A DNA stretch of 64,000 bases from positions 1,426,001-1,490,000 of the forward strand of contig NZ_CP063141.1 in assembly GCF_014961315.1 (NCBI RefSeq), written 5' to 3'. Below are positions 27,482 through 29,876 of this stretch, piece after piece. Origin of the DNA: Thermoflavifilum sp. Its GTDB lineage: Bacteria > Bacteroidota > Bacteroidia > Chitinophagales > Chitinophagaceae. Position 1 is the stretch's first letter, and the number at the start of each line of letters is the position of its first letter. The notes under the pieces are model-generated. The model did no database searches. It was not told the origin of the DNA and worked only from the letters and a program-made list of their open reading frames with translations. Both the position numbers and the translations under genes were made by a program.

Positions 27482-27488
27482 TCAGATG

Positions 27489-27578
27489 CGGTGAGGGCGG
27501 GATTCGAACCCGCGGTGGCGCTTTGGGCACCACGACGGTTTAGCAAACCGCTCCTTTCGGCCTCTCAGGCACCTCACC
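27489..27578 (-). tRNA. tRNA-Ser (anticodon GCT)
   Basis: 90 nucleotides on the minus strand. The acceptor stem GGTGAGG pairs perfectly with CCTCACC, with discriminator G. The anticodon loop is TTGCTAA on a five-base stem (GCGGT with ACCGT, one G-U pair), giving anticodon GCT for AGC/AGT codons. A long variable arm and the T-arm GGTTCGAATCC complete a class II tRNA. CCA is not encoded. A -7 box precedes it and a hairpin terminator follows. Confidence 0.95.
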
Positions 27579-27614: not shown

Positions 27615-29051
27615 TTAGAGGGCCGACAGTTGCACTTTTTGTTGCAATTCCATCAACATTTCCCGGAAAGCCGCATCGGTTTCCATCAGGTCTTTCACCG
27701 TCTGGCAGGAATGAATGACGGTGGTATGGTCCCGACCTCCAAAATGCTCTCCAATGGTTTTTAGCGAATTCTTGGTAAACGACTTGGCCAGATACATGGT
27801 AATCTGTCGGGCCTGTACGATTTCGCGTTTGCGTGTTTTCTCCAGTAACTTTTCATAGGGTACACCCAGATGCTCGCATACCATACGTTGTATAGCCTCG
27901 ATGGTAATTTCTTTCGAAGAAGTTTTGATGAATGATTTCAGGACTTTTTTAGCAAGGTCAAGGTCAATTTCTTTCCGGTTCAACGACGACTGTGCCAGCA
28001 GTGAGATGAGTGCCCCTTCCAGTTCACGCACATTGGTCTGAATGTTATAGGCAATATATTTGACCACCTCTTTAGGCATTTCCAGTCCATCATTACGCAT
28101 TTTGTTTTCTAAGATTTCCATACGGGTTTCGAAATCAGGCACCTGCAGATCGGCGCTCAGTCCCCAGCGGAAGCGGCTCAGCAGGCGCTCCTGTACTTTT
28201 TCCAGGTCTTTGGGTGGTTTATCGGAAGTGAGTACCAGCTGTTTGCCCGACTGATGCAGGTGGTTAAAAATAGCAAAGAAAGCATCCTGCGACTTTTCGG
28301 CATTGGCGAAAAACTGAATATCATCCAGGATCAGCACATCAATCAGCTGGTAAAAATGGATAAAATCGTTGATAGCGTTGTGTTTGGAATGGTCGATGAA
28401 CTGGTTGATAAATTTTTCGGTGCTCACATACAATACGGTTTTGTGGGGATGCATTTTTTTTACGGCATTGCCCACAGCCTGTGCCAGATGGGTTTTGCCC
28501 AGCCCTACGCCTCCGTAGATAACCAGCGGATTGAACGATGTAGCACCCGGTTTTTCGGCCACAGCTTTTCCGGCTCGCCGTGCCACCCGATTACAGTCGC
28601 CCTCAATAAATGTTTCAAAGGTGTAATGCGGATTCAGCTGAGCATCAATCTGCACCCGCTTCAATCCTGGAATGACAAAGGGATTTTTAACGGGTGTATT
28701 TTGTTGAAATAAAGGAAAATCCACTTCATTCTGAGTCTGCGGTTTGTCGTAGTGGGTGGGCATATCCACCGTAGCCGGATGACGCTGTGCGGAGCCTTTT
28801 TCCACCACAATACGGTATTCCAGCCGCGCATCTTTTCCCAGTTCGCGCCGCAAAATTTTGGCCAGCAGTTCCACATAATGTTCTTCCAGGTATTCGTAAA
28901 AAAACTGGCTGGGCACCTGAATGGTCAACACATTATTTTCCAGCTTCACAGGCTTAATCGGCTCAAACCATGTTTTGTAGGGTTGCCATTCCACAATATC
29001 CCGGATAATACTCAAACATCTTTCCCATACGGCTTCGCAATTTTTTTCCAT
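27615..29051 (-). CDS. dnaA: Chromosomal replication initiator protein DnaA
   Basis: 478-residue AAA+ initiator that binds oriC. Domain I spans about 1-85 and a linker reaches about 140. Domain III has Walker A YGGVGLGKTHLA (about 179-190) and Walker B VLILDDIQFF. Domain IV ends with the DNA-binding helix-turn-helix, QARQITMYLAKSF and the signature FGGRDHTTVIHSC. The gene is flanked by tRNA-Ser downstream and by a 411-base AT-rich gap upstream. dnaN and recF are not adjacent, and rpmH-rnpA-yidD lie about 20 kb away, so the classical dnaA cluster is broken up here. Confidence 0.97.
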   Translation of the reverse strand: MEKNCEAVWERCLSIIRDIVEWQPYKTWFEPIKPVKLENNVLTIQVPSQFFYEYLEEHYVELLAKILRRELGKDARLEYRIVVEKGSAQRHPATVDMPTHYDKPQTQNEVDFPLFQQNTPVKNPFVIPGLKRVQIDAQLNPHYTFETFIEGDCNRVARRAGKAVAEKPGATSFNPLVIYGGVGLGKTHLAQAVGNAVKKMHPHKTVLYVSTEKFINQFIDHSKHNAINDFIHFYQLIDVLILDDIQFFANAEKSQDAFFAIFNHLHQSGKQLVLTSDKPPKDLEKVQERLLSRFRWGLSADLQVPDFETRMEILENKMRNDGLEMPKEVVKYIAYNIQTNVRELEGALISLLAQSSLNRKEIDLDLAKKVLKSFIKTSSKEITIEAIQRMVCEHLGVPYEKLLEKTRKREIVQARQITMYLAKSFTKNSLKTIGEHFGGRDHTTVIHSCQTVKDLMETDAAFREMLMELQQKVQLSAL

Positions 29052-29462
29052 GTATCAGGTTTATTTTGTATTCGGCACGTTTTAGAAAAAAATCGGGAAA
29101 TCTTCAGCCCGTACGACCTGAAAATTTCCTGGAGGGGCAGCGAATTTCATGAGAAATTTCTGAAAAAAAAAATGCTTCACCTCTTGTTTGTTTGCAAAAT
29201 CCTTTTTAAATGAAGGATATATTATGCAACAAAATCTTTTCTCACGCATCATGAGAATTCGCTGTCAGAAAGGGTTTGAAAAGATGCTGACAAAAATTCA
29301 TTTTTGTAAAAGCTTTATTCAGCTGTTACATTATGCAACCCGTCATTACCCGAAAAGCAATGGCAGTAGAAATATAGCAAAATTTTATTGATTGCTCCAA
29401 ACGGAAATTGTATATTTGCTGATAGAAATATATTCCTTTAAAACATCATAAAATCTTTGATC
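29052..29462. other. AT-rich divergent intergenic region between dnaA and the DUF3127 gene
   Basis: 411 bases without a supported gene. It contains a ten-base direct repeat ATTATGCAAC (29221-29230 and 29330-29339), a short inverted repeat CAAAAAT/ATTTTTG (29291-29306), and the promoter box at 29411 for the DUF3127 gene. No TAnnTTTG box for dnaA was found. No perfect DnaA box was seen here, so an origin is not supported by this stretch alone. Confidence 0.4.
29387..29418 (+). promoter_or_regulatory. Promoter of the DUF3127 gene (ATTG-N20-TATATTTG)
   Basis: The -7 box TATATTTG at 29411-29418 has an ATTG at 29387-29390, exactly 20 bases upstream. This is the best two-part Bacteroidota promoter match in the window. 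The ATG follows at 29463, leaving a leader of roughly 40 bases. Confidence 0.55.
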
Positions 29463-29876
29463 ATGAGCTTCGAAATCACAGGCAAAATTGTTGCCAAATA
29501 TGATGTGGTGCAGCGCACACAAAACTTTCGCACACGTGAATTTGTCATAGAAAAAGTTGAAGATTACGGTGGAAAATTTATCAGTCAATTTATTAAATTT
29601 CAACTGGTTCAGGATCGAACGAGTTTAATCGATCGTTTCCAGGAAGGCGATGAGGTGAAGGTGAGTTTTAATTTAAAAGGCAGTAAATGGGAAAAAGATG
29701 GCCGGGTAAATTACATTACCAATCTGGATGCCTGGAGAATAGAACTGGTAGAGCCTGTACAACATGTATCGCCGTCAACTGTGATGTCTGATACAGGCAG
29801 TGGATATGAATCCGCGCTGGAAACTCATATCAATAATGACGCAGAAGGTGCAGAAGGTGATGATTTACCCTTCTGA
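29463..29876 (+). CDS. DUF3127 protein with SSB-like acidic C-terminal tip
   Basis: 137 residues from the ATG at 29463. The N-terminal DUF3127 domain (about 1-95) has MSFEITGKIVAKYDVVQRTQ, FREFVIEK-like, and VSFNLKGSKWEKDGRVNYIT; this part is compatible with an OB-type fold. A low-complexity linker leads to the last residues DAEGAEGDDLPF. That ending copies the DDDIPF tip by which single-stranded DNA-binding protein recruits partners. It is adjacent to dnaA, divergently. Role is unknown; single-stranded DNA or replication work is inference from tail and location. Confidence 0.8.
   Translation: MSFEITGKIVAKYDVVQRTQNFRTREFVIEKVEDYGGKFISQFIKFQLVQDRTSLIDRFQEGDEVKVSFNLKGSKWEKDGRVNYITNLDAWRIELVEPVQHVSPSTVMSDTGSGYESALETHINNDAEGAEGDDLPF

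Follow-up and report, generated by a model that had tools for sequence, protein, structure and literature searches.

A DUF3127 protein of Bacteroidota as a probable second single-stranded DNA-binding protein with an SSB-type C-terminal tip

A small protein of the DUF3127 family, encoded in a window of 64,000 nucleotides (the whole stretch of a Thermoflavifilum sp. chromosome that was analysed), is probably a second single-stranded DNA-binding protein (SSB), which would coat single-stranded DNA (ssDNA), recruit repair and replication partners and act as the main or only carrier of the SSB tip in some lineages. This reading draws on the predicted fold of the protein, its sequence relationship to SSB, its invariant tip and its distribution relative to SSB tails; from the mechanism of SSB we infer that DUF3127 would bind ssDNA and partner proteins and may have taken over the recruiting role in certain lineages.

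The DUF3127 gene and its neighbourhood

The features of the locus, in window coordinates, are as follows.

29463–29876, + strand: DUF3127 gene, encoding an SSB-like protein of 137 amino acids (PF11325, E 1.2e-19; PHROG 4932, E 1.3e-23)
29463–29747, + strand: OB-fold domain, residues 1–95 (AlphaFold2 prediction; best solved matches SSB, PriB and mitochondrial SSB)
29688–29690, + strand: codon of Trp76, aligned with the Klebsiella SSB Trp equivalent to E. coli Trp88
29748–29843, + strand: variable linker, residues 96–127, predicted to be disordered (low pLDDT; length and sequence differ between relatives)
29859–29873, + strand: C-terminal tip DDLPF of the SSB-Ct type (PF invariant in 215 of 215 host relatives)
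29052–29462, no strand: intergenic region of 411 bp between dnaA and the DUF3127 gene, without an origin signature
27615–29051, − strand: dnaA, the divergent neighbour (context, outside the DUF3127 protein; DnaA flanks nearly all Chitinophagaceae loci)

The open reading frame begins with an ATG at 29463 and stops at 29874–29876, and an alternative in-frame TTG start at 29457 would lengthen the protein by two residues. Its assignment to DUF3127 in the initial annotation was confirmed by a PF11325 score of 70.7 bits, above the curated cut-off of 27, and residues 4–137 matched PHROG 4932, 'single strand DNA binding protein'. The classical SSB profile PF00436 gave no match at E values up to 1, and we therefore do not class the protein among the classical SSBs. 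The host genome is complete (2.83 Mb, one contig), and the closest named relatives are both Thermoflavifilum, with 74% and 72% identity in DUF3127 and 99% and 95% in the adjacent DnaA.

The gene is divergent from dnaA, as originally described, and nearly all 80 Chitinophagaceae DUF3127 loci have DnaA in their flanks on the opposite strand (79 loci in all, 4 of them from a separate genome sample). This adjacency was not seen in families other than Chitinophagaceae; the dnaA neighbourhood reflects a gene order conserved within a single family and is no evidence of function. A replication origin between the two genes was considered and rejected, the 411-bp gap containing neither a GC-skew turn nor a cluster of DnaA boxes. 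A tRNA-Ser (GCT) lies at 27488–27578, between dnaA and a uvrA-like gene. A typical Chitinophagaceae dnaA-DUF3127 locus was also found on a contig labelled Beijerinckiaceae (Alphaproteobacteria; L007), a record that is probably misbinned or misnamed.

Predicted fold and sequence relationship to SSB

An AlphaFold2 model built on 58 aligned relatives reached block-mean pLDDT values of 94–97 over residues 1–90 and 86 over residues 91–100; values were about 50–55 in the linker and about 53–65 over residues 101–137. The domain is predicted to comprise strands at residues 2–12, 23–35 and 38–49, a helix at 50–58 and strands at 64–78 and 81–95; this strand-strand-strand-helix-strand-strand topology, with the long hairpin last, is that of an OB barrel. 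Foldseek returned 210 matches in the PDB under an E value of 0.001, of which the top 50 were all SSB or PriB. The VIA-align rows were likewise nearly all SSB, PriB or mitochondrial SSB, the best match being Salinibacter SSB (5odn; Z 12.4, rmsd 2.3 Å over 92 aligned residues), tied with PriB and with yeast and human mitochondrial SSB. Among viral predicted structures, the top matches to the model were DUF3127 and phage SSB proteins. The N-terminal OB fold that had been offered as a possibility is thus predicted with high confidence and is of the SSB/PriB kind, these being the nearest solved structures.

The relationship to SSB is also detectable in sequence, at the level of profiles: a search of solved structures with the single DUF3127 sequence gave no match, and the DUF3127 profile compared with all PDB sequences gave 21 matches up to E 10, of which 18 were SSBs, the best being Deinococcus radiodurans SSB (5.8e-5) and those beyond it weak. 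Alignment with Bacteroidota SSBs by hhalign extended over 122 columns at 12% identity (E 2.5e-7, probability 93) and includes the tip, which may supply part of the score. Position 76 aligns with Trp in the R-K-W motif of Klebsiella SSB, and of the four base-stacking aromatics of E. coli SSB (Trp40, Trp54, Phe60 and Trp88; PMC3991886), only the Trp88 position is assigned with confidence by the alignment. Positions 76, 84 and 91, which are Trp, Tyr and Trp in the window protein, are W, Y or F in 100% of 77 non-redundant DUF3127 proteins, and position 22 in 99%.

An invariant tip after a variable linker

The window protein ends GAEGDDLPF, its tip peptide being NDAEGAEGDDLPF with Phe as the last residue. 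A PF terminus was found in all 215 chromosomal DUF3127 proteins collected, nearly all of them showing the acidic-LPF form; after removal of near-copies, the 77 remaining host proteins ended in DDLPF (63), DVLPF (3), NDLPF (2), GDLPF (2) or one of seven singletons, the rarer variants including HDVPF and GEAPF. The last ~10 residues of host proteins contain on average 4.1 D/E and 0.06 K/R, and the linker, from about residue 96 to the tip, varies freely between relatives in both sequence and length. With the tip invariant and the linker variable, we conclude that selection acts on the tip and not on the linker, just as in SSB. The tail comparison proposed at the outset therefore shows a tip that is constant across Bacteroidota and, with the predicted OB fold and the profile relationship, supports the SSB-like reading; the description of the linker as acidic and of low complexity needs amending, as the low complexity stands but the acidity is found mainly in the last ~10 residues.

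A pattern search of the Thermoflavifilum genome found DD[L/I/V/M/F]PF termini in just two proteins, DUF3127 and XseB, against a chance expectation from composition of 0.001–0.02 proteins per 2,500; the DDLPF tail of DUF3127 is not due to chance. XseB, the small subunit of exonuclease VII, has SSB-like termini in two Thermoflavifilum genomes (NADDLPF and NEDLPF; L113 1261–1518, which is C1:1857170–1857427 of the present genome, and L158 1501–1758), and its tip may mimic the SSB tip or compete for the same pockets.

Classical SSBs without a tip in Thermoflavifilum, and distribution in the phylum

When E. coli SSB lacks its tip, or the last Phe alone, it no longer binds its partners, and the loss is lethal (PMC10164576); a 2014 study describes the last four residues as shared by every known bacterial SSB (PMC3991886). 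The genome studied here encodes exactly one PF00436 protein, next to a gene called mutY-like on the basis of its sequence, and this sole classical SSB ends SIESELNPEDHT, that is NPEDHT, without a tip. The sole classical SSB of a Thermoflavifilum congener ends SMESELNPEDNE, that is NPEDNE, and is also tipless, so that a sequencing error is not the explanation (the two genes lie at L081 1492–1935 and L137 1492–1926). Within the genome, DUF3127 alone among SSB-like proteins carries a tip, the remaining tip being that of XseB. An SSB with this tip is regarded as a universal feature of bacteria, a rule that a sole SSB which is tailless or missing contradicts; it would be rescued if another protein bears the tip, and DUF3127 is a candidate.

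Across the phylum, DUF3127 was found in 222 of the 395 Bacteroidota genomes sampled (209 of the 371 good genomes), almost always as a single copy, and PF00436 in 392 of 395; its absence from the other 173 makes DUF3127 dispensable in the phylum. In 80 genomes, the locations of SSB genes were checked against the positions and sequences that encode tips, weakened forms (ENLPF, DQLPF, GEVPF and DDEPF) being counted as tipped. A tipped SSB is kept in all 24 sampled genomes without DUF3127, whereas 4 of the 54 genomes with DUF3127 outside the flavobacterial family f4 have an SSB but no tipped one (G000, G007, G099 and G059), a difference that is not significant (p 0.31). In G024, also outside f4 and with DUF3127, an SSB was not found, probably owing to an assembly gap. 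Pooling gave a p of 6e-4, a value driven mainly by a single family and taking no account of relatedness. Beyond f4, a tipped SSB accompanies DUF3127 in most genomes, so any take-over would be lineage-specific.

A hand-off of the tip in all Chitinophagaceae was rejected: the mutY-type SSB keeps weakened tips in several members (NPDLPF, SQDLPF and GESLPF), and second SSBs with DDLPF occur in other relatives. Short tailless SSBs of 104–114 amino acids occur widely in Bacteroidota, and many f4 genomes have no other SSB (L124, L128, L253, L254, L293–L297 and L321).

A flavobacterial family with tailless or missing SSBs

Family f4 (handle G012), which we take from its short SSB sequence to be probably Weeksellaceae, carries DUF3127 in all 74 good genomes and PF00436 in 69. 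A tipped PF00436 protein is lacking from 36 of the 74, and in all 36 the DUF3127 tip was read and is intact. The tipless state was read in 22 of these, inferred from open frames of 111–115 amino acids in 9 and assigned to 5 as having no SSB; two fragmented genomes, G397 and G405, were undecided and are left out of the 36. The SSBs read were bare domains (LLGGK and others), proteins with eroded tails (HSEF and others) and one ending ENTPF; across many f4 genomes SSB consists of a bare OB domain of 104–111 amino acids while DUF3127 bears the tip.

The absence of PF00436 from five genomes (G396, G407, G408, G410 and G424) was upheld by the family's own SSB profile, which gave no match or E 0.2 in these and E 1e-46 or better in positive controls, and SSB is missing more often in f4 than in the phylum (5 of 74 versus 3 of 371; Fisher p 0.004). 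On a HisS tree, in which three rows were badly extracted, the five genomes are scattered. A single ancestral loss is accordingly not supported, which leaves several losses or assembly gaps in some; part of the five could be such gaps, and the G396 assembly is in 3 contigs at 99% completeness. A deletion junction was not demonstrated at the hisS-ssb locus, where synteny is lost. Loci L389–L394 represent flavobacterial genomes that have DUF3127 and lack a detectable classical SSB gene, namely the five above and G399. Furthermore, many f4 genomes contain an accessory, lower-scoring SSB ending EDDLPF, possibly on mobile elements, so that the take-over would not be uniform even within f4.

These genomes raise the possibility, which we put forward tentatively, that DUF3127 displaced the classical SSB and became the essential hub for ssDNA binding in f4 and possibly in Thermoflavifilum, some members having dropped PF00436. 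It is rather doubtful that DUF3127 is instead a partner subunit, working in mixed oligomers with a tailless SSB or beside it, with SSB coating the DNA and DUF3127 giving the tips. The bare SSB domains of f4 with the tip on DUF3127, and the common fold of the two proteins, would suit such an arrangement; however, DUF3127 is equally conserved where SSB carries its own tip, is kept in genomes without a detected SSB and is carried by phages without SSB nearby, and the two domains are only distantly alike.

Phage and plasmid members

DUF3127 matched 91 phage records and 2 plasmid records. The window protein as query found no viral relative, phage members being located with relatives from other families, and one flavobacterial query led to 265 viral-contig stretches. 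Phage tips are more variable than those of hosts, 63 of 90 ending in LPF, the others in LPY, EPF or SPF, with a few tailless. Some viral proteins are tailless and stop just past the OB domain at 88–93 amino acids, with termini such as SNF and ANY (L405–L407, L454, L460, L463, L479, L480, L482 and L487). In the flanks of 90 viral members no PF00436-like protein was found. The DUF3127 gene lies near a RecT-like annealing protein and a DnaA-like protein in Cellulophaga phi13:2, near a primase/helicase and NinG in Flavobacterium morran9-1 and near NinG in Gundel_1, and in P12024L it directly adjoins a YqaJ exonuclease, with Erf and a primase nearby.

PHROGs and RefSeq already name the phage proteins 'single strand DNA binding protein', and the domain name DUF3127 appears a single time in the literature searched, for a phage SSB (PMC8004638). 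The chromosomal protein is annotated just as DUF3127. The family extends beyond chromosomes and is common among phages of Bacteroidota.

With phage copies among RecT/Erf, exonuclease and NinG genes, DUF3127 might be a phage-derived SSB specialised for recombination or repair, comparable to SsbB or the SSBs of phages, and not a protein of the replication fork. We consider this unlikely: the near-universal single copy, the stable synteny in Chitinophagaceae and the presence in every good f4 genome look like housekeeping, and in some genomes DUF3127 is the one tipped SSB left.

Relation to PriB and to other OB-fold proteins

A PriB-like factor of replication restart would account for the tie of PriB with SSB among the best fold matches (Z 11–12) and for the dnaA neighbour in one family. 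PriB is nevertheless absent from the 21 PDB profile matches (E up to 10), most of which are SSBs, and, according to PMC8509808, PriB has the SSB-like OB fold without the C-terminal tip domain, whereas the tip of DUF3127 is invariant; this role is very unlikely. A merely superficial likeness, in which an OB protein for RNA or another ligand (many are bound by OB folds) has a fortuitous acidic tail, is highly improbable given the PF terminus of 215 proteins, the conserved SSB stacking aromatic, the SSB-specific profile matches and the recombination context in phages.

Proposed role and comparison with known systems

As a second SSB, DUF3127 would bind ssDNA through its OB barrel, which the disordered linker is predicted to follow, and the last five residues, DDLPF, would dock into the SSB pockets of RecG, RecO, PriA and other partners. 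In most Bacteroidota that have it, DUF3127 presumably acts alongside the classical SSB; in the lineages with tailless SSB (Thermoflavifilum and about half of f4), it may be the main or only recruiter of partners to ssDNA. Such a role would give a name and a function to DUF3127 in more than half of the sampled Bacteroidota and in many phages that infect them. As far as we found, in a literature search covering few subscription journals, the complementarity of DUF3127 with tailless or missing SSB has no earlier description.

DUF3127 is like the bacterial SSBs of PF00436 (E. coli SSB, B. subtilis SsbA) in its OB fold, its disordered linker, its acidic-[L/I]PF tip and the aromatic residue at the Trp88 position, and it coexists with them in most genomes; in contrast to them it is unmatched by PF00436, the similarity being at profile level only. 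The phage proteins of PHROG 4932 belong to the same family, DDLPF tip included, but their genes lie in recombination and replication modules, whereas the host gene is chromosomal and single-copy. A precedent for a different protein replacing the classical SSB is ThermoDBP of the archaeal Thermoproteales (PMC8998557). ThermoDBP is not an OB protein, whereas DUF3127, the possible replacement here, is itself SSB-like; if DUF3127 has indeed displaced SSB, it would be the bacterial counterpart of the archaeal ThermoDBP replacement.
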